Positions 38,812 to 59,431 of a stretch of DNA of 64,000 nt are shown piece by piece; positions within the stretch are counted from its first letter, which is position 1; the number at the start of each line of letters is the position of its first letter. The notes under the pieces were generated by a model that saw nothing but the letters and a program-made list of their open reading frames with translations, was not told the DNA's origin and ran no database searches. Made by a program: the position numbers and the translations under genes. Origin of the DNA: Thalassobaculum sp. OXR-137 (GTDB lineage Bacteria > Pseudomonadota > Alphaproteobacteria > Thalassobaculales > Thalassobaculaceae); NCBI RefSeq assembly GCF_034377285.1, contig NZ_CP139715.1, forward strand, positions 4,758,001-4,822,000. Reading direction: 5' to 3'.

Positions 38812-39039
38812 CTAAATGGCGCGGAAATCCGTAGAGCGGATGCGATCGGTCAGATCGATCTCTTCTTCCAACACGGTCTCGCTCATCAGCATGCCACGAC
38901 GGATGAGTTCGCGAATTGCGGCCGCAAGACTCGGCATGCGATGGCGGTAGCGCCAGTCGTCGATCGAATCCAGCTCATCCCTATCAAGCATGATCTGCAG
39001 ACGAACATTCCGGAGGCCGGATTGGTCCGAGGCAGGCAT
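38812..39039 (-). CDS. Ribbon-helix-helix-like small protein, paralogue 1
   Basis: A 75-residue protein sharing a core with the products at 53340 and 55355: a strand (VRLQIMLD), ELDSIDDWRYRHRM, then AAIRELIRRGML. Strand-helix-helix order with an arginine-rich second helix resembles the ribbon-helix-helix DNA-binding fold, though these could also bind protein. The ATG at 39039 (GGAG nine bases upstream) is preferred to 39120. It is divergent from the phytochrome operon and so could control it. The acidic C-terminal tail ends in RSTDFRAI, close to the KSTEYRAI of the 55355 protein. Confidence 0.65.
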   Translation of the reverse strand: MPASDQSGLRNVRLQIMLDRDELDSIDDWRYRHRMPSLAAAIRELIRRGMLMSETVLEEEIDLTDRIRSTDFRAI

Positions 39040-39357
39040 CTTCTGTTTCTCCGAAATCAGGCTCGGTACCAAGCCGCGCCGAGCAATCGTATCAACGCTA
39101 CAGAGCGGCGCGTTAGTCAATAGCGACTACATACTACCGCCTACGAAACACTGATGATTCCCGGTCCAACGGCACTTGTCGGACCTTCCGCCAAAGCCGA
39201 TCCGCGACTACTGTGGCATTGAATCATGAGCTTGGATTATGACGGCTGCTATCGGCGGCAGGCAGATCTCGATCCGCCGCCCCGGAAACCGACAATCGAC
39301 CGCCGATCGGTCGGCCCATCGACCGGTACGTGACCGGGTTCCAATAGAGGCCTGCGC
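39040..39357. other. Divergent control region between RHH-like gene and bphO
   Basis: 318 bp without a supported gene. It contains the leaders of the two divergent genes. No exact EcfG-type promoter, clear sigma-70 pair or terminator was recognised. Confidence 0.5.
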
Positions 39358-39909
39358 ATGAGACTGAGAGACCATCTCAGACGGGAGACCAGGGCTCTGC
39401 ATCAGCGGACGGAAGCCCTGCTGCAGCACCTGGACATCCGGACTCGCGCGGGGCTGGACAGCTTCCTGCTGGTTCACCATGCGGTGGTCATGCCGATGGA
39501 GCGCCGTCTGGCGGCCTCGGACATGACCCGGCGCTGGCCCTTCCGGCTGACCGACCTGCTGGTGGAGGACCTGGAGGAACGGGCGCTGAAGCCGACCGCG
39601 GGGGTGCCCGCCGCCCGGTTCGAGGACGCGGATCCCGTCGGCCTCAGCTACGTGCTGGGCGGATCGAGGTTGGGGTCCCGCGTTCTGCTTAAGCGCCTGG
39701 CCGGCGCCTGCCCGGCGCCCCGATATCTGAGCCGCGCGCCGGACGACGAGATCTGGCCCTGGACGCTGTCGCTCCTGAATTCGCCGGAGGCGGCAGCAGC
39801 CCCCCGGGAGGACGTCCTACAGGGCGCCGAGATCGCTTTCGCCAGTTTCGCCGACGCCGTATCCCTCGTGGAGGCGCCCAAGGAGACCATCCATGCCCTC
39901 GCCGTCTGA
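39358..39909 (+). CDS. bphO: Heme oxygenase (biliverdin-producing, bacteriophytochrome-associated)
   Basis: A 183-residue heme oxygenase that opens heme to biliverdin, iron and CO. The proximal histidine is in LHQRTEALL near residue 15 and the distal-helix glycines in YVLGGSRLGSRVL. AGAGG lies seven bases before the ATG. The stop lies 17 bp inside the phytochrome gene, so enzyme and photoreceptor are translated together, the usual bphO-bphP arrangement that supplies the chromophore. Confidence 0.88.
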   Translation: MRLRDHLRRETRALHQRTEALLQHLDIRTRAGLDSFLLVHHAVVMPMERRLAASDMTRRWPFRLTDLLVEDLEERALKPTAGVPAARFEDADPVGLSYVLGGSRLGSRVLLKRLAGACPAPRYLSRAPDDEIWPWTLSLLNSPEAAAAPREDVLQGAEIAFASFADAVSLVEAPKETIHALAV

Positions 39910-42457
39910 ACTCCCGCCGGGCATCGACCTGTCGCAATGCGAGCGCGAACCGATCCACAAGCTGGGACGGGTCCAGTTCTTCGGCTTCCTGATCGCGGTG
40001 TCCCCCGACTGGACCATCACCCAGGTCTCGGAGAACATCGGCACCTATCTCGGCCTGGAGCCGGTCGACCTGATCGGGCTCGACCTCAACTCGGTGCTGA
40101 ACCGGGAAGCGATCCACAACATCCGCACGCGCATGCAGATGCTGCAGGACGAAGACACGGTGGAGCGTCTGTTCCGCATTCGGATCCTCGACAACCTGCA
40201 GCGCGATTTCGACATCTCGCTCCACGTCAACGGCGCCACCACGATCCTGGAATTCGAGCCGAATTCGGACGTGCAGCAGGACTACACTGCCTATGTGCAG
40301 CCGATGATCAACCGGGTCTCCAAACCGCAGACGGTGAAGGAGGCCTGCGAATCCGCGGCGAAGGCGGTGCGCGCCCTGACCGGCTTCGACCGGGTGATGG
40401 TCTATCGCCTCCATGACGACGAGTCCGGGGAAGTGGTCGCCGAGGTCCGCAATCCCGGATCGACCAGCTACCTGGGGCTGCGCTATCCGGCCTCGGACAT
40501 TCCGCCCCAGGCCCGCCGGATGTATCTGCGCAGCACCCTGCGCATCGTCTCCGACATTCAGGCGCCGACCGCGGCGATCGTCCCCGAGAACGATCCCGCC
40601 ACCGGCGAGCCGCTGGACCTCTCCCTGTCCAGCCTGCGTGCGGTCTCGCCGGTCCATCTCGAGTACCTGGCGAATATGGGCGTGCAGGCCTCCATGTCCG
40701 TGTCGATCGTCATGCACGGCAAGCTGTGGGGCTTGATCGCCTGCCACCACAACAGCCCGCGCGTGCTGAGCTTCCAGGCCCGCTCGGCGACCCAGATGTT
40801 CGGGCAGCTCTTCGCGCTGATCCTGGAGAAGAAGGACAACGAGGCCAGCAACCGCGACCGGGAGCGTGCCCAGGCGCTGCACGACGCGCTGATGGCCCGC
40901 CTGGCCACGGGCTCCTCCATCAGCCGCCAGTTCCAGGAATTGGCAGAGATGATCGCCACCGTCATTCCCTGCGACGGGATGATCGGCTGGACGGAAGGCG
41001 CCTATATCGGGTTCGGGGAGGTGCCGACCCATGACGAGTTCGTCGCCCTGCTGCCGTTCCTGACCTCCGTCGCCTCCGGCCGGATCTACGCGACCCACGA
41101 CCTGCCGGCGGCGTTGCCCGAGGGCGTGCCGGTGCCGTCGACCGCCGCCGGCCTGCTGGCGATCCCGGTCTCCCGGTCCACGCGCGATTTCATCGTTCTG
41201 GTGCGCCGCGAGGTCGCCAAGACCATCGAGTGGGCCGGCGCGCCCGACAAGGCGGTGATCAAGCGCGACGGCGAGGACAGGCTGAGTCCCCGCACCAGTT
41301 TCGAAGCGTGGCAGGAAATCGTTCGCGGGCAATCCGCCCTGTGGACCGACAGCGATATCCGGACCGCGGAATCCCTTCGGGTGACCCTCACCGAGGTCAT
41401 CCTGAAGATGTCGGAGACCGCGCTGGCGGAGCGCACCGCCGCCAACGAGCGTCAGGAGATCCTGATTGCCGAGTTGAACCACCGGGTCCGCAACATCTTC
41501 AACGTTATCCGGGGGATCTGGTCGCAGAGCTCGGCGTCGAGCGGCACCATCACCGGGCTTACCGAGACCGTCGGCGGCCGGATCCAGGCCCTCGCCCGGG
41601 CCTACGACCAGGTCACCGAGGTGGACTGGCGTCCGGCCTCCCTGTGGCGCCTTCTGGCCACCGAACTGGCCGCCTACTCCGGCAAGAACGGCCAGCGCCT
41701 CGACCTGCGGGGCGACGACGCGCTGCTGCTGCCCAACGCCGTTTCCGCGATCTCGCTGGTGATCCACGAACTGACGACGAACTCGATCAAGTACGGCGCG
41801 CTGAGCTCCCCCGCTGGCTGGATCGCGGTGACCTCGACGCAGGCAGCGTCGGGCGATCTTACCGTCGAGTGGCGCGAGCTGGGCGGCCCGCAGGTCTCGG
41901 CGCCGGAGCGGATCGGCTTCGGCACCACCATCATCGAACAGTCGGTTCCACACGAACTCGGCGGCACGACCACCGTCCGTTTCGTGGCCGAAGGGCTGGA
42001 GGTCGACATCACCGTCCCGGCGCGGTTCGTGGCCGGCATGGTCAAGACGCCCCCGCCGGTCCCCGGCCGCGAGCAGGAGCCGGCACCGACGAAGCAGACG
42101 GCCAGCGGCTCCGCCCTGCTGCTGGAGGACAACCTGATCATCGCGCTGGCTTCCGAGGAGATGCTGCGCAACGTCGGGGCGGATCACGTCTGGATCTGCT
42201 CCACCGTCGACCAGGCCCTGCGGGTGATCGAGACCAGCGACATCGATTTCGCCGTGCTCGACGTCAATCTGGGCGACCGGAACGCGGGCGACGTGGCGCG
42301 GGAACTGAGCCGGCGCGGCATCCCCTTCATGTTCGTCACCGGCTACGGCGAGAAGTCTCCGTTGAAGCAGACCTACCCGCACGCGCCCGTCCTGCAGAAG
42401 CCGTTCGCCGAGGAACGCCTGTCCTCGGCCCTGGCACAGCTCGAGCTGCGGCGCTGA
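39893..42457 (+). CDS. bphP: Bacteriophytochrome HWE-type histidine kinase with C-terminal receiver
   Basis: Red/far-red photoreceptor of 854 residues: PAS (about 10-120), GAF (about 140-310), PHY (about 320-505), kinase and receiver. The biliverdin cysteine is C16 (SQCEREPIH); GAF has YPASDIPPQAR and the histidine in SPVHLEYLANMGV; PHY has the tongue PRTSF motif. The kinase is HWE-class: H530 in ELNHRVRN, HELTTNSIKYGA and the W-x-E in VEWRELGG. The receiver acceptor is D790 with FVTGYG nearby. One oddity is QFFGFL where bacteriophytochromes usually have QPHGxL. HWE kinases commonly feed PhyR, and a PhyR gene is convergent 81 bp away. Confidence 0.92.
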   Translation: MPSPSELPPGIDLSQCEREPIHKLGRVQFFGFLIAVSPDWTITQVSENIGTYLGLEPVDLIGLDLNSVLNREAIHNIRTRMQMLQDEDTVERLFRIRILDNLQRDFDISLHVNGATTILEFEPNSDVQQDYTAYVQPMINRVSKPQTVKEACESAAKAVRALTGFDRVMVYRLHDDESGEVVAEVRNPGSTSYLGLRYPASDIPPQARRMYLRSTLRIVSDIQAPTAAIVPENDPATGEPLDLSLSSLRAVSPVHLEYLANMGVQASMSVSIVMHGKLWGLIACHHNSPRVLSFQARSATQMFGQLFALILEKKDNEASNRDRERAQALHDALMARLATGSSISRQFQELAEMIATVIPCDGMIGWTEGAYIGFGEVPTHDEFVALLPFLTSVASGRIYATHDLPAALPEGVPVPSTAAGLLAIPVSRSTRDFIVLVRREVAKTIEWAGAPDKAVIKRDGEDRLSPRTSFEAWQEIVRGQSALWTDSDIRTAESLRVTLTEVILKMSETALAERTAANERQEILIAELNHRVRNIFNVIRGIWSQSSASSGTITGLTETVGGRIQALARAYDQVTEVDWRPASLWRLLATELAAYSGKNGQRLDLRGDDALLLPNAVSAISLVIHELTTNSIKYGALSSPAGWIAVTSTQAASGDLTVEWRELGGPQVSAPERIGFGTTIIEQSVPHELGGTTTVRFVAEGLEVDITVPARFVAGMVKTPPPVPGREQEPAPTKQTASGSALLLEDNLIIALASEEMLRNVGADHVWICSTVDQALRVIETSDIDFAVLDVNLGDRNAGDVARELSRRGIPFMFVTGYGEKSPLKQTYPHAPVLQKPFAEERLSSALAQLELRR

Positions 42458-42474
42458 AGGGCTGGTGCTGAATC

Positions 42475-42502
42475 AAAAGTCCCGGCCGCGAGGGGCCGGG
42501 AC
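42475..42502 (-). terminator. Rho-independent terminator of phyR
   Basis: A 9-bp stem, GTCCCGGCC/GGCCGGGAC with a 6-base loop, is followed on the minus strand by TTTT. It is placed 37 bp past the phyR stop and also lies just beyond the phytochrome gene, whose side lacks a T-run. Confidence 0.75.
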
Positions 42503-42538
42503 GGTAGATCCGTAGTCCAGGATCACAGCGGATCGGCC

Positions 42539-43378
42539 TCAGCCGATCTCCCGCTCGGCCTCCGCGTCGATCACCGATCCCAGCCGGTCGCGGGCCGCAA
42601 CCGTGTAGCCGAGGGCCGCACGGATCGCTTCCGGCTTGAACGGCTTGGCCACGATCACCGACGGCTCCTCGTCCATTCCGGTGAGCACTTCGTCGGGATA
42701 GGCGGTGACGTAGATCGTCGCGAATTCGCCATCCGCCCGGAGCTTCTCGATGGCCTGAAGCCCCGTATCGCCATTCTCCAGCATCTGGTCGGTCACGATC
42801 AGCTCCGGCCAATTCTGGCGGCAGATCTTTATCGCGTCGGTCTCGTTGGCGGCAATCCCGATCACCGAAAGCCCGGTCTCGCCGATGATGTCGGACAGGT
42901 CCTGGGCAATCAGGCCGTGATCCTCCAGGATCAGCACCGGAAGCGGCGGCAGGTTGCGGGTCAGCTCCCGCCCCTCCTCCAAGGCGGCCACCGCCTCCTC
43001 AGGCGACAGATTCAGCAGCTCGGCGCCTTCGTCGACGGAGAAGCCGACAAAGTCGCAGAGCAGCAGCATCTGCTCGGGAGCCGGGGGAAGATTCGGAACG
43101 AAGGTCCGCAGGCGATCATCGGTGAACGGCGCGGAATCGCCGGACTTCTTCGTGTCGCCGTCCTCGCTCTGGGAGGCCCAATCGCGGAAGAAGTCCTTGA
43201 AGACCTGAAACTTGGCGGAGGCCGTCGCGGTTCCGCTCAGGACCTCATCGGTCTCGGCGCTGGCGTAGGTCAGCCGCAGCCATTCCTCGGCCCAGACGGT
43301 ATCCACGTTCAAAGCGCGCAGAAACCGCCGAAGCGGGCGCACGCTCTGATGATTAAGCCATTTTCGCATAACAACCAT
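42539..43378 (-). CDS. phyR: PhyR-type general stress response regulator
   Basis: A 279-residue anti-anti-sigma regulator. Residues 1 to about 140 form a sigma-factor-like domain (degenerate region 2, then a region-4-like LPPAPEQMLLLCDFVGFSVD); residues about 147-260 form a receiver with acidic E152-D153, acceptor D197 (IVTDQML), YVTAYP in place of the FAT-GUY motif and K245 (VAKPF). In known systems phosphorylated PhyR uses its sigma-like domain to pull NepR off EcfG. Here the usual EP after the acidic pair is HG. The ATG at 43378 lacks a good ribosome-binding site. Convergent with the phytochrome kinase; a near-consensus EcfG promoter lies upstream. Confidence 0.85.
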   Translation of the reverse strand: MVVMRKWLNHQSVRPLRRFLRALNVDTVWAEEWLRLTYASAETDEVLSGTATASAKFQVFKDFFRDWASQSEDGDTKKSGDSAPFTDDRLRTFVPNLPPAPEQMLLLCDFVGFSVDEGAELLNLSPEEAVAALEEGRELTRNLPPLPVLILEDHGLIAQDLSDIIGETGLSVIGIAANETDAIKICRQNWPELIVTDQMLENGDTGLQAIEKLRADGEFATIYVTAYPDEVLTGMDEEPSVIVAKPFKPEAIRAALGYTVAARDRLGSVIDAEAEREIG

Positions 43379-43431
43379 ACCCGATCACGCGACGACGCGC
43401 GTTTGAACGTCCGAATGAAGAAGACCAAGAT

Positions 43432-43456
43432 AACGCCGATTCGGCAATCGGGTTCT
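43432..43456 (-). promoter_or_regulatory. Near-consensus EcfG-type promoter of phyR
   Basis: On the minus strand AGAAC-N16-CGTT, one mismatch from GGAAC-N16-CGTT, 53 bp before the phyR start. Autoregulation of phyR by EcfG is known in other Alphaproteobacteria. Confidence 0.5.
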
Positions 43457-51703: not shown

Positions 51704-51728
51704 GGAACCGACCCCGACCAAGTCCGTT
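51704..51728 (+). promoter_or_regulatory. EcfG-type promoter for small lipoprotein 51782
   Basis: Exact GGAAC-N16-CGTT, 53 bp before the start codon. It lies in a 325-bp gap (51457-51781) whose other content is the divergent EcfG-type site at 51538 and the two leaders. Confidence 0.78.
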
Positions 51729-51781: not shown

Positions 51782-51937
51782 ATGAAGAAGATCGTTTGGG
51801 CCAGTCTGCTTGCTGGTTTTCTCTCCCTCGGCCTGTCCGCCTGCTACGACCAGGACGGCCCGATGGAACAGATGGGCGAGGCCGCCGATGAGGCGGTGAA
51901 CGACACCAAGCGCGCCGTTAAGGACGCTGCCGACTAA
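51782..51937 (+). CDS. Small lipoprotein, 51 residues
   Basis: MKKIVWASLLAGFLSLGLSAC gives a lipobox with Cys21, followed by about 30 acidic and helical residues containing EAADEAVNDTKRAVKDAAD, like entericidin-type or coiled-coil stress lipoproteins. GGAGG lies seven bases before the ATG. It has its own EcfG-type promoter and a perfect 12-bp terminator, so it is a single-gene stress transcript. Confidence 0.8.
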   Translation: MKKIVWASLLAGFLSLGLSACYDQDGPMEQMGEAADEAVNDTKRAVKDAAD

Positions 51938-52040: not shown

Positions 52041-52065
52041 GGAACCGCCGTTCGGACGAAGCGTT
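52041..52065 (+). promoter_or_regulatory. EcfG-type promoter for glycine-zipper lipoprotein
   Basis: Exact GGAAC-N16-CGTT, 35 bp before the ATG at 52101. Confidence 0.78.
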
Positions 52066-52100
52066 CCCCTGCAAGAATGCAACAGCTAGGAGATAGAGCC

Positions 52101-52328
52101 ATGCGTAAGCTTGCTACCGCTGCCCTGGTTACCGCCGGCCTCACCCTGAGCGCCTGCTCGGGCATGAACAGCACCCAGCAGAGCACCCTGTCCGGCGGCG
52201 CCATCGGCGCCGGCGTCGGCGCGGCCGGTGCCGCGGTGACGGGCGGCTGTCTGGCATGCGGTGCAGCGATCGGCGGCGCCGTCGGCGCCGGCACCGGCTA
52301 TATCATCGACGAGTCGAAGAAGGACTGA
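52101..52328 (+). CDS. Glycine-zipper lipoprotein
   Basis: A 75-residue lipoprotein: signal to lipobox LSAC (Cys17), then a Gly/Ala-rich stretch with small-residue GxxxG spacing (GGAIGAGVGAAGAAVTGG and AIGGAVGAGTGY) that can insert in membranes. A Cys pair in GCLACG may be functional. AGGAG is nine bases before the ATG; the open frame from 52077 is not used. This is the second stress-promoter lipoprotein in a row. Such proteins (SlyB/YMGG-like) stabilise the outer membrane in other bacteria. Confidence 0.78.
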   Translation: MRKLATAALVTAGLTLSACSGMNSTQQSTLSGGAIGAGVGAAGAAVTGGCLACGAAIGGAVGAGTGYIIDESKKD

Positions 52329-53178: not shown

Positions 53179-53339
53179 GGCGTTGTGCCCTATGGAATAA
53201 AGCCCTTTCGAAAAGCGCCTATACATTAACCCATGATGAAGATCTGGCACCTAAATACAGGTACTAAGTCTGTATGGACGATCAAATCTGGACTGACTTG
53301 AGACGAACTGGCCCCACGCCGGAAGGATCAGATAATACT

Positions 53340-53555
53340 ATGACGGAAGGGATACAAACTCGCGGCAAACGCACTGAACGTCTGCAGATCATGCTCAACG
53401 ACGACGAATTGGGCGAAATCGAAGATTGGCGATTCATACACCGGGTCAACTCCCGGTCAAGCGCCATTCGTATGCTCATCAGGCTCGGCCTGGATGCATC
53501 CAAGCAAGGCGTGAAACCTGCAGAGGAACTCCCTTTGGGTCGGCCCAAGGCCTGA
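53340..53555 (+). CDS. Ribbon-helix-helix-like small protein, paralogue 2
   Basis: A 71-residue protein with the same core as those at 38812 and 55355: RTERLQIMLNDDELGEIEDW, then SSAIRMLIRLGL. The first part is basic (RGKRTER) and could contact DNA. The ATG at 53340 fits the core position; an upstream in-frame codon at 53274 would add 22 residues. It lies between a Crp/Fnr gene (divergent) and an OmpA gene (convergent). Confidence 0.68.
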   Translation: MTEGIQTRGKRTERLQIMLNDDELGEIEDWRFIHRVNSRSSAIRMLIRLGLDASKQGVKPAEELPLGRPKA

Positions 53556-54983: not shown

Positions 54984-55008
54984 GGAACCGTTCATTTGAA
55001 CAGGCGTT
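54984..55008 (+). promoter_or_regulatory. EcfG-type promoter for DUF1328 gene
   Basis: Exact GGAAC-N16-CGTT, 70 bp before the ATG at 55079. Confidence 0.78.
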
Positions 55009-55078
55009 TACCGGTCACAACAACTCAATGCGTTGGATCCGTTCGGTCGCCAGCGCTGACTGAAAAATGGAGACGAAA

Positions 55079-55252
55079 ATGCTTGGTTGGAGTCTGATGT
55101 TTCTCGTGCTGGCGATCATTGCCGGCGTGTTCGGTTTCGGCGGCGTCGCGGCCGCTTCCGCGGATATCGCGCAGATCCTCTTCGTGGTCTTCCTCGTGCT
55201 GCTGGTGATCAGCGCCGTGGCCGGCGCCATCCGCGGCCGCCGACCCATGTGA
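55079..55252 (+). CDS. DUF1328-family small membrane protein
   Basis: A 57-residue protein of two hydrophobic segments, [20 protein letters not shown] and [15 protein letters not shown]. This layout, with a GFGG turn, is the DUF1328 (YtjA-like) family; members are often stress-induced. GGAG is six bases before the ATG at 55079, so a longer form from 55067 is unlikely. It has its own EcfG-type promoter and terminator. Confidence 0.85.
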
Positions 55253-55354: not shown

Positions 55355-55597
55355 TTATTCCTCGATCGGAATAGCCCGATATTCCGTTGATTTCATGTCT
55401 CTGGGGTCCGGCATGTCGACAGCTTCGTCGATCGCATCCTCATAGAGCATGCCGCGCCTGATCAGTTCGCGGATCGCGGCAGCGCGCGTCGGGATACGAT
55501 TATCGAAGCGCCAATCGTCGATCCTGGTCAGCTCTTCGTCGTCCAGCATGAGCTGAAGCCGCTCAGTACGACGACCAGACTTTTGTTCTTCACCCAT
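55355..55597 (-). CDS. Ribbon-helix-helix-like small protein, paralogue 3
   Basis: An 80-residue protein with core RRTERLQLMLDDEELTRIDD, RFDNRIPTRAAAIRELIRRG and an acidic tail ending near KSTEYRAIPIEE. The last part matches the tail of paralogue 1 (38812). The ATG at 55597 has GGAG six bases upstream; in-frame codons at 55609 and 55750 do not. It is divergent from the ECF sigma gene and could control it. Confidence 0.7.
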   Translation of the reverse strand: MGEEQKSGRRTERLQLMLDDEELTRIDDWRFDNRIPTRAAAIRELIRRGMLYEDAIDEAVDMPDPRDMKSTEYRAIPIEE

Positions 55598-56049
55598 CGG
55601 GTTCTCCATGGTGCCAGGCCTCGCCACACCATCCAAGTCGTCGGATCCGCGGCCCAGATGCTTGGAACCGGGGATCGAAATCATCCGATTTTGAGCACTA
55701 ACACCATTTAGATCCGACAGATAGCGCCTACGAGGCGGCCGATAGGCCAATCATATACTCATAGTGCGCCTCTTACTCAACAGCCGTCATCTGTGTCAAA
55801 TGACACAATGGCTTTAAATGATCATTCACCCCAAACCGCCCAACCAACCCCTCCCGCTCATAGTGAGCCGAATAATCATAATGATTACGAGCCGCCTTTT
55901 CTGCCCGTCCCTCATGTTGCTGCAAATGCCTCCATTATATAAACCGCCCAAATGGGGCTTTATGCTTTAGAGTGGGCAGCGGATTTAATTGAACCGGAGC
56001 TCAATAAGTACTTTATTGCTATTCATCGAAACGAATTCAGGTGACCGAG
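55598..56049. other. Control region upstream of ECF sigma gene
   Basis: 452 bp without a supported gene, AT-richer than its surroundings. It holds a perfect inverted repeat TGTGTCA-AA-TGACACA (55792-55807), a likely operator. No EcfG-type site precedes the sigma gene here. Confidence 0.5.
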
Positions 56050-56616
56050 ATGAGTCCGAACGTGGCCAAAGAGATCGAACAGCTGCTCCCCACCCTGCGC
56101 CGCTTTGCGCGGTCGCTGACCCGGGACGCCGCCCGTGCCGACGATCTGGTCCAGGACACCGTCGAACGCGCGCTGAAGCGCATCGACAGCTTCGAGGAAG
56201 GATCCAACCTCAAGGCCTGGATGTTCACGATCATGCGCAATCACTTCATCTCCGAGTGCCGCCGCCCGCGTCCGGTGGCCGGTTCGGAGGAACTGGACTC
56301 CGGCAAGTACGAGCAGTCCATCCCCGGCGCCCAGCAGGACACCGTGGAGCTCAAGGAGTTCATGGCGGCTTTCTCCAATCTGGATAAGGGCGATCAGGAA
56401 CTGCTGATCCTCGCCGGCCTGGAGAACGTGCCGTACCCGGACATCGCCAACATGCTCGACGTCGCCGTCGGCACGGTGAAGTCCCGCGTTGCCCGCGCCC
56501 GCATGCGTCTTCGTGAGCTGCATGTCGGCGGCGCCCATCTGTCCTCTACGCCTGCATACGTCTCGTCCATGCGCTCTCGCAACGGCGTCGCCGCCCACCA
56601 CGCCGGTGTCGCCTGA
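56050..56616 (+). CDS. ECF sigma factor, EcfG-like
   Basis: A 188-residue group 4 sigma factor. Region 2 is LPTLRRFARSLTRDAARADD followed by LVQDTVERAL and NLKAWMFTIMRN; region 4 is VPYPDIANMLDVAVGTVKSR. The RADDLVQDT and AWMFTIMRN style is that of EcfG/ECF15, the general stress sigma of Alphaproteobacteria. AGG sits eight bases before the ATG at 56050. No nepR is adjacent, which is unusual; the nearest candidate anti-sigma is at 59101. A C-terminal extension of about 25 residues (from HVGGAHLSS) is not typical. Assignment as EcfG is supported by the promoters around it. Confidence 0.78.
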   Translation: MSPNVAKEIEQLLPTLRRFARSLTRDAARADDLVQDTVERALKRIDSFEEGSNLKAWMFTIMRNHFISECRRPRPVAGSEELDSGKYEQSIPGAQQDTVELKEFMAAFSNLDKGDQELLILAGLENVPYPDIANMLDVAVGTVKSRVARARMRLRELHVGGAHLSSTPAYVSSMRSRNGVAAHHAGVA

Positions 56617-59100: not shown

Positions 59101-59346
59101 TCAGTTCCGACCCTGGTGATGGCCGCGGACGAGATCGAGCAGCCGTTGAGGCACCGGCTCGTCCGTCATCGGGTCGAGTGCCCGGTGCAGAAGGGCATTC
59201 TGCGCCATGAACGCGCCCAGCGTTTCCGCACATCGATCATCCTGCAGATCGAGCTCTTCGATCGCTTCGGCCAGATCGCCATCCGCCTGCCCATCCACGA
59301 ACGCAGATAGATCTTCGATCGTGATGACATCCAGCAGGGTGGGCAT
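59101..59346 (-). CDS. Small anti-sigma-factor-like protein (EPVP motif)
   Basis: An 81-residue soluble protein. It opens with TIEDLSAFVDGQADGDLAEA, as in RsiW-type anti-sigma factors, and ends with LLHRALDPMTDEPVPQRLLD. The L-x6-D-x3-EPVP-x-RLLDL core is shared by anti-sigma factors and by NepR, the EcfG inhibitor. There is no zinc-binding HCC motif and no membrane segment. GGAG is eight bases before the ATG at 59346; an in-frame codon at 59388 is less likely. An exact EcfG-type promoter precedes it, the feedback expected of a NepR-like inhibitor. Confidence 0.68.
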   Translation of the reverse strand: MPTLLDVITIEDLSAFVDGQADGDLAEAIEELDLQDDRCAETLGAFMAQNALLHRALDPMTDEPVPQRLLDLVRGHHQGRN

Positions 59347-59406
59347 CTCATGATCTCCGTTTCGCGACAATGACATACTGAATCTCACTCTGTTGCACGA
59401 CTAAAG

Positions 59407-59431
59407 AACGTCCAACCGCGAGTATGGTTCC
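59407..59431 (-). promoter_or_regulatory. EcfG-type promoter for anti-sigma-like gene
   Basis: Exact GGAAC-N16-CGTT on the minus strand, 60 bp before the preferred ATG at 59346. Confidence 0.78.

Follow-up and report, generated by a model that had tools for sequence, protein, structure and literature searches.

An HWE-class bacteriophytochrome beside a divergent PhyR as a candidate red/far-red light input to an EcfG-type general stress response

In Caulobacter, LovK is a light-sensing HWE kinase that stands upstream of PhyR. The locus discussed here lies in a stretch of 64,000 nucleotides from Thalassobaculum sp. OXR-137 (positions 4,758,001 to 4,822,000 of NZ_CP139715.1, a contig of 5.46 Mb in a genome of 5.65 Mb), which will be called the window, and it brings together bphP, the gene of a bacteriophytochrome with an HWE histidine kinase, and phyR1, the gene of a divergent PhyR. 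In the partner switch described for other bacteria, an HWE kinase phosphorylates PhyR, which then removes NepR from the sigma factor EcfG (PMC12148442, PMC5898713), and the promoter consensus of EcfG is like GGAAC-N16-17-C/GGTT (PMC12148442). The logic of such a system can be dark-on, as RT-HK, a LOV-HWE kinase of Rubellimicrobium thermophilum, phosphorylates RT-PhyR more in the dark (PMC12148442). In Brucella, LOV-HK modulates the general stress response (PMC4438053), and the Paks, which belong to the HWE/HisKA_2 family, phosphorylate both PhyR and the FAT GUY regulator SdrG (PMC5898713).

Phytochromes and red light have been tied to stress by other routes. Pseudomonas syringae anticipates water loss via a bacteriophytochrome (PMC12627116), which may serve as a precedent for stress preparation by a phytochrome, though apparently not via PhyR. 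Red light also acts on SigB, the general stress sigma factor, in Bacillus subtilis and Listeria (PMC12627116, PMC3019169), neither Bacillus nor Listeria having a phytochrome-like protein according to PMC3019169. In the literature searched on phytochromes together with PhyR, NepR, EcfG or the general stress response, no link between a phytochrome and PhyR was found, and the co-mentions stand apart or in reference lists.

The bphO-bphP and phyR1 locus

We propose, with a probability of about 0.58, that BphP feeds red/far-red light signals into the EcfG-type general stress response of this alphaproteobacterium, with PhyR1 as its direct target. The genes, domains, adjacency, conservation and promoter words on which this proposal is built were read directly from the DNA. 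The principal features are given below; the labels G002 and G003 denote two other genomes of the window's genus, g1.

39358..39909, + strand: probable bphO, heme oxygenase (biliverdin supply), 183 amino acids; Heme_oxygenase family below its cut-off; orthologs in G002 and G003
39893..42457, + strand: bphP, 854 amino acids; PAS-GAF-PHY core, HWE histidine kinase and C-terminal receiver with the motif FVTGY
42458..42538, no strand: intergenic gap of 81 bp with a GC-rich palindromic hairpin, a possible bidirectional terminator
42539..43378, - strand: phyR1, divergent PhyR of 279 amino acids with a sigma-like domain and a receiver, by alignment and fold matches
56050..56616, + strand: ecfG-type sigma factor; PhyR_sigma2, Sigma70_r2 and Sigma70_r4 over their cut-offs; best PDB match 5uxx
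59101..59349, - strand: candidate anti-sigma factor at NepR's place, with an N half like an anti-sigma domain and a NepR-like C half; below every family cut-off

The original prediction for this DNA had claimed that bphO-bphP and phyR converge across 81 bp, that the phytochrome's kinase is of the HWE class, and that the sigma factor and its promoters lie within 20 kb. The coordinates of the open reading frames (ORFs) agree: bphO-bphP (39358-42457, +) and phyR1 (42539-43378, -) are convergent with their stops 81 bp apart, and the bphO frame (39358-39909) shares 17 bp with that of bphP (39893-42457). The hairpin between the two genes has an RNA fold z of -4.1 on the + strand and of -3.6 on the - strand. 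The sigma gene lies 12.7 kb from the start of phyR1, and 7 promoter sites are present in the window.

The class of the kinase is borne out by the domain content of BphP, in which PAS_2, GAF, PHY, HWE_HK (65.1 bits, cut-off 22.8) and the C-terminal receiver (32.5 bits, cut-off 30.2) each pass the Pfam cut-offs. The N-terminal Cys16 and the motif P199-A-S-D-I-P204 (PASDIP), both marks of bacteriophytochromes, are invariant among five aligned proteins, the window's included. By PDB sequence search, the closest solved chain to the photosensory core is 6g1y (expectation value, E, 7e-114), which we take to be Agp2. Agp2 likewise carries an HWE kinase and a receiver. BphP is predicted to bind biliverdin and to photoconvert. 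The protein was not filed under the NCBIfam BphP equivalog NF041576, of which it reaches 321.8 bits against a cut-off of 1040. A scan of species genomes, from which the best 80 BphP loci were kept with flanks of 10 kb where the contigs allow (19 of the 80 stretches are shorter), furnished a wider comparison: the HWE-type phosphoacceptor box ELNHRVRN is present in all 81 BphPs scanned, the window's included. The receiver of BphP contains FMFVTGYGE, a FAT GUY-like motif.

The gene upstream of bphP is probably bphO, the weakest of the gene names. Its product scores 13.6 bits with Heme_oxygenase (PF01126, cut-off 23) and had no match at E <= 1 in a PDB sequence search; the name was given mainly because homologs accompany bphP in 45 of the 80 listed loci, 42 of them immediately 5' of bphP on the same strand and 3 elsewhere nearby.

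The neighbour of bphP had been called phyR, and the call stands with a qualification: by its layout and fold, and not by the curated family NF006623, PhyR1 is a PhyR of divergent sequence. Among PDB sequences it is closest to the PhyR 3n0r (E 6e-27, residues 16-260), and the top 15 matches of a fold search with its structure model are all PhyR structures, the 15th being a PhyR receiver domain alone; in the model the receiver is confident and the sigma-like domain poor. The phosphoacceptor Asp, the switch Thr and the Lys align with those of other PhyRs, and the layout of sigma-like domain plus receiver emerges from the PhyR alignment, the sigma-like part alone being below its Pfam cut-off. Mutation of Glu-235 in the PhyR of Sphingomonas makes it constitutively active (PMC5898713); the equivalent residue is kept in PhyR1 (Glu238 by our count) and is Pro in the second PhyR of the genome, the product of phyR2.

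phyR1 and phyR2 are the two PhyR matches in the genome that span both domains, and each adjoins an HWE kinase gene. HWE_HK/HisKA_2 matches number three in the genome, namely BphP, a CheB-CheR-PAS-GAF-HWE protein and a GAF-HisKA_2 protein (its GAF assigned by eye); phyR1 is convergent with the first and phyR2 divergent from the second. Rough arithmetic, with about 5,000 genes assumed, puts the chance of both adjacencies at about 1e-6, and the association of PhyR genes with HWE kinase genes exceeds chance. The arrangement of phyR2 with the CheB-CheR-HWE gene is also present in G002; no phyR2 was found by genome search in G003. Another observation concerns L020:7454-11467, where phyR2 is divergent from the CheB-CheR-PAS-GAF-HWE kinase gene and a methylation-type architecture is tied to a PhyR.

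The sigma factor at 56050-56616 is of the EcfG type. Of PDB entries, 5uxx matches it most closely (E 5e-31, as against 2e-17 for the second); this entry is labelled RNA polymerase sigma factor and is presumably an EcfG. It passes the cut-offs for PhyR_sigma2, Sigma70_r2 and Sigma70_r4 and misses those of the NCBIfam equivalogs (best 144.7 of 270 bits), and homologs with 40-46% identity to it stand next to phyR in relatives. A second EcfG-like sigma (C1:1934073) has 39% identity to it and was set aside, a membrane-type anti-sigma gene coming directly after it by eye. The genome contains the promoter word GGAAC-N16-17-CGTT 109 times, whereas a reversed-pattern control is present 37 times, so that about a third of the sites may be due to chance; the EcfG-type site 5' of phyR2 is kept in both genomes tested.

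Taken together, these features allow the following scheme. BphO would make biliverdin, and BphP, on binding it, would switch its own HWE kinase. Phosphate would go from the kinase both to PhyR1 and to the receiver of BphP, the latter being a sink or a relay step. In phosphorylated PhyR1 the sigma-like domain would be freed to remove the anti-sigma factor from EcfG. This anti-sigma factor would be the 59101-59349 protein and not a canonical NepR, and the freed EcfG would transcribe the genes behind GGAAC-N16-17-CGTT promoters. Chromophore binding, phosphotransfer, the direction of the light effect and the anti-sigma role of the 59101 protein are the inferred parts of the scheme.

The missing NepR and a candidate stand-in

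In a profile search of the genome, no match to NepR (PF18557) passed the cut-off of 25.7 bits, so the complete set of phyR, nepR and ecfG was not found there. The best place, at 14.1 bits (E 0.31), is inside ORF 59101-59349, the product of which scores 13.9-14.1 bits and was not filed as NepR. Of 12 genomes, the own included, three (G006, G017 and G033, all of genus g2) have a PF18557 match over the cut-off, and these three also have PhyR over its cut-off. Below that threshold, the top places are homologs of the 59101 protein in G003 (18.2 bits) and in G010, from another genus of the family (18.6 bits), but the place listed for G002 is elsewhere. Because PF18557 at E <= 1 gives hits in 8 of 14 control genomes as well, sub-threshold NepR places weigh little alone. 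A motif scan of small ORFs and a profile built from five NepRs and run on the collected loci likewise gave no passing NepR in the window's genus.

The 59101-59349 gene, at a distance of about 3 kb from ecfG, has an EcfG-type promoter that is conserved. The Pfam families listed for its product at E <= 1 are NepR, zf-HC2 and RseA_N, all of them anti-sigma families and all below cut-off; no PDB sequence matched at E <= 10, and the AlphaFold model was left unused for its low confidence (predicted local distance difference test, pLDDT, 58.7). When a profile built from the window's protein and its homologs in G002, G003 and G010 was run against 3,220 frames of 15 loci, 9 of 10 anti-sigma frames, six NepRs being among the ten, came within its top 10; the ten had been recognized before this run, but the list of them was fixed after its result, and the frames of G007, G018 and G026, as opposed to the six NepRs, were spotted partly by likeness to the 59101 protein. 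One hundred column-shuffled profiles placed on average 0.15 and at most 2 of the ten frames in the top 10, and the reversed profile placed 2. The N half of the profile alone retrieved the three anti-sigma-domain frames and the L003 frame, and the C half alone had the six NepRs in its top 10, with unrelated frames also ranking high (L066_18043 with the N half, L159_8803 with the C half). Single matches are not significant individually, except L162 (E 0.003). The 59101 protein is a small soluble protein with an anti-sigma-like N half and a NepR-like C half, each likeness being weak and the two jointly stronger, and it may take NepR's place as anti-sigma factor.

Comparable genes occur in the family. 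G010 has an EcfG of 78% identity and, convergent with its gene, a homolog of the 59101 gene (47%) with an EcfG-type promoter, as well as two ribbon-helix-helix-like genes, a DUF1328 gene and a Crp-like gene; neither PhyR (E <= 1e-14) nor BphP (E <= 1e-60) was matched there. In G007, G018 and G026, the EcfG gene (51-53%) is followed by that of a small anti-sigma-domain-like protein of 24-27% identity to the window's, with a GGAAC-type site between the two genes; PhyR searches at E <= 1e-14 gave nothing in G018 and receiver-only matches in G007 and G026. The loci of family members with EcfG and such a small protein are L158, L161, L162 and L163. The occurrence of EcfG with a 59101-like protein where no PhyR match is recognizable (G010, G018) speaks against PhyR as the sole antagonist.

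These observations can be accommodated if the family rebuilt the NepR step, in that an anti-sigma protein with a NepR-like tail holds EcfG and the two divergent PhyRs of genus g1, each with its own HWE kinase and one of these a phytochrome responding to red/far-red light, adapted to remove it. We regard this as a tentative idea against which the odds lean somewhat, and our estimate was lowered slightly because the ten frames of the profile test were listed once its outcome was known. If true, the 59101 protein would be a living link from classical anti-sigma domains to NepR.

Recurrence of the linkage and rival explanations

A search of 116 genomes, in which BphP matches were counted at E <= 1e-60 and PhyR1 matches at E <= 1e-12, gave BphP in 9 genomes, two of them covering the C-terminal part only (query residues 507-849), and PhyR1 in 19. 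Conservation of the adjacency was one of the points on which the original prediction could have been refuted, and it was upheld: in genus g1, bphP is convergent with phyR1 in all three genomes with a full-length bphP (own, G002 and G003), the BphPs of G002 and G003 being 86% and 77% identical to the window's. G001, G004 and G005 of the same genus have neither match at these thresholds.

Further support for a connection was provided by the listed BphP loci outside the genus, of which 8 of 80 have an EcfG homolog within 10 kb: L080, L081, L084, L088, L089, L090 and L146, all seven from Novosphingobium, and L119, from a Rhizobiaceae metagenome-assembled genome. Chance would give about 0.4 such loci if an EcfG locus is assumed to occur once per 5 Mb and each of the 80 stretches is taken as 22.5 kb. 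A PhyR with at least 190 aligned residues is near BphP in 7 of the 80, all among the 8 with EcfG, and the clusters of L084 and L146 also include a CHASE-HWE kinase. On a tree of 85 BphPs, 11 of them linked, the label changes 3 times, whereas shuffled labels change 10.5 times on average, and none of 500 shuffles was as low, a contrast that near-copies inflate.

Two side observations belong here. The receivers of all eight EcfG-linked BphPs outside the genus contain ASGYG, and most other listed BphPs carry ATGYG; the unlinked L147 and L149 have ASGYG too, and L130 and L131 a close variant. In G075, a distant relative, an EcfG-like sigma of 39% identity (L061:14450-14905) and an HWE-type BphP are separated by about 5 kb, the PhyR being elsewhere in the genome.

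Several results weigh against a phytochrome-PhyR1-EcfG pathway. None of the BphPs from the 116-genome search outside g1 adjoins a PhyR match by coordinates, many of the contigs being drafts, and 72 of the 80 listed loci have no EcfG-like neighbour, bar a weak, uncounted sigma match of 27% in L098, so the linkage is no general feature of BphPs. The seven Novosphingobium loci are mutually dependent and not separate cases, and the three linked lineages may have one common origin, as the starred branches of the tree force one change only. PhyR1 falls short of the curated cut-offs (145.9 of 240 bits for NF006623, 18.8 of 27 bits for PF22233). No EcfG-type promoter was found within 300 bp 5' of bphO, phyR1 or ecfG (3, 3 and 4 genomes tested), unlike phyR2, the sole trace being a weak partial promoter word 5' of bphO in G003. 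The missing NepR counts on the same side.

BphP also carries its own receiver and might signal via that alone, and the FAT GUY-like motif in this receiver lends itself to an explanation in which BphP and PhyR1 share a stress island and are not partners: BphP would act through its receiver on other outputs, and PhyR1 would be fed by the CheB-CheR-PAS-HWE or the GAF-HisKA_2 kinase, the two further kinases of this type in the genome. The convergence of bphP and phyR1, which leaves no room for co-transcription, suits such an arrangement; however, phyR2 already adjoins an HWE kinase gene of its own, and bphP and phyR1 stay together in all three genomes of the genus in which a full-length bphP was found. 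We consider the explanation unlikely. That a photoreceptor cassette came to the stress locus by accident, the adjacency being incidental, would fit the many BphP loci without a nearby EcfG homolog, yet it is highly improbable in view of a pair kept in three species whose BphPs are 77-86% identical, of the other PhyR-HWE pair that this genome has, and of a linkage that recurs in Novosphingobium and the Rhizobiaceae genome.

It could further be argued that PhyR1 does receive phosphate from BphP and, with NepR gone, is no longer an anti-anti-sigma factor, its sigma-like domain having been repurposed or EcfG being under the 59101 protein and others without PhyR. The lack of a NepR over the cut-off points this way, as do the sigma-like domain of PhyR1, below its Pfam cut-off and modelled at low confidence, and the G010 genome with its EcfG, 59101 homolog and no PhyR match. 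We hold this to be quite unlikely, since sequence and fold searches place PhyR1 with PhyR across both domains and phyR2 is behind a conserved EcfG-type promoter, as expected for a part of the stress response.

Thus, light input from BphP to EcfG through PhyR1 is the reading that we prefer. The original prediction fared unevenly: the HWE class, the adjoining PhyR-type partner, the EcfG-type sigma factor within 13 kb, the adjacency kept in the genus and the linkage of BphP to stress loci in two other alphaproteobacterial lineages speak for it. Its claim that a PhyR-EcfG cascade would follow is not supported in that form, in view of the missing NepR, the divergence of PhyR1, another PhyR paired with an HWE kinase and a sign of the light effect that is unreadable from sequence.

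Neighbouring features and comparison with known systems

Further features of the window are as follows.

38815..39048, - strand: small ribbon-helix-helix-like protein, divergent from bphO; one of 5 in the genome; RHH_1 below cut-off
51704..51728, + strand: EcfG-type promoter by its promoter word, 78 bp 5' of the small ORF 51782-51937
52041..52065, + strand: EcfG-type promoter 5' of ORF 52077-52328; kept in G002 and G003 (3 of 3 genomes)
53274..53555, + strand: second ribbon-helix-helix-like protein of the island, by family search
54984..55008, + strand: EcfG-type promoter of the DUF1328 gene; kept in G002 and G003 (3 of 3 genomes tested)
55067..55252, + strand: DUF1328 small membrane protein (58.7 bits, cut-off 27), probable EcfG target
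55370..55606, - strand: third ribbon-helix-helix-like protein, divergent from ecfG, by family search
59407..59431, - strand: EcfG-type promoter of the 59101-59349 gene; also in G002, G003 and G010, at -82 to -85 (4 of 4 genomes tested)

The ribbon-helix-helix-like family has five members in the genome (the three of the window, C1:488276 and C1:2814647), a sixth place with E 0.59 being uncounted, and matches at E <= 1e-6 in 7 of the 116 genomes, the own included. Four of the five belong to general-stress loci, one each next to bphO, ecfG and phyR2 and one in the island, and the family members are possibly local regulators of the stress circuit. No EcfG-type promoter was found within 300 bp upstream of four ribbon-helix-helix-like genes, and a search for a shared operator in 14 intergenic stretches gave no k-mer clearly above shuffles. 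Two words kept by eye in all three species are candidate operators: GCTCATAGTGAG 5' of ecfG (55607-56049) and TAGTCAATAG 5' of bphO (39049-39357). As a separate observation, G004 has a ribbon-helix-helix-like gene at L160:1116-1364 and a weak DUF1328 match, and searches there gave no EcfG (E <= 1e-25), PhyR (1e-14) or BphP (1e-60).

That blue light feeds into the stress response of alphaproteobacteria is documented; a phytochrome input, if true, would add red and far-red light and assign a definite target to bacterial phytochromes of the HWE type. The lack of NepR, together with the protein that may stand in for it, suggests that the partner switch is open to rewiring at its core, and it bears on the origin of NepR.

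With the LOV-HWE kinases (RT-HK, LovK and Brucella LOV-HK), the window shares a light-sensing HWE kinase that goes with PhyR upstream of the sigma factor EcfG. Those kinases sense blue light by a flavin-binding LOV domain, whereas BphP has a bilin-type PAS-GAF-PHY core, a fused receiver and a probable heme oxygenase, and its genome has no NepR over the cut-off. The Agp2-type HWE bacteriophytochromes of Agrobacterium probably provide the closest solved photosensory core (6g1y); bphP of the window has, for its part, an adjoining PhyR gene. The red-light response through SigB in Bacillus subtilis and Listeria uses another sigma factor and other switch proteins. Compared with the PhyR-NepR-EcfG response, the window is alike in its PhyR-type regulator, EcfG-type sigma factor, promoters and HWE kinases beside phyR, and differs by its divergent PhyRs, the lack of a NepR over the cut-off and a protein that appears anti-sigma-like with a NepR-like tail. 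The N half of this protein is similar, below cut-off, to zf-HC2 and RseA_N proteins, from which it is set apart by a C half that is NepR-like in genera g1 and g6.

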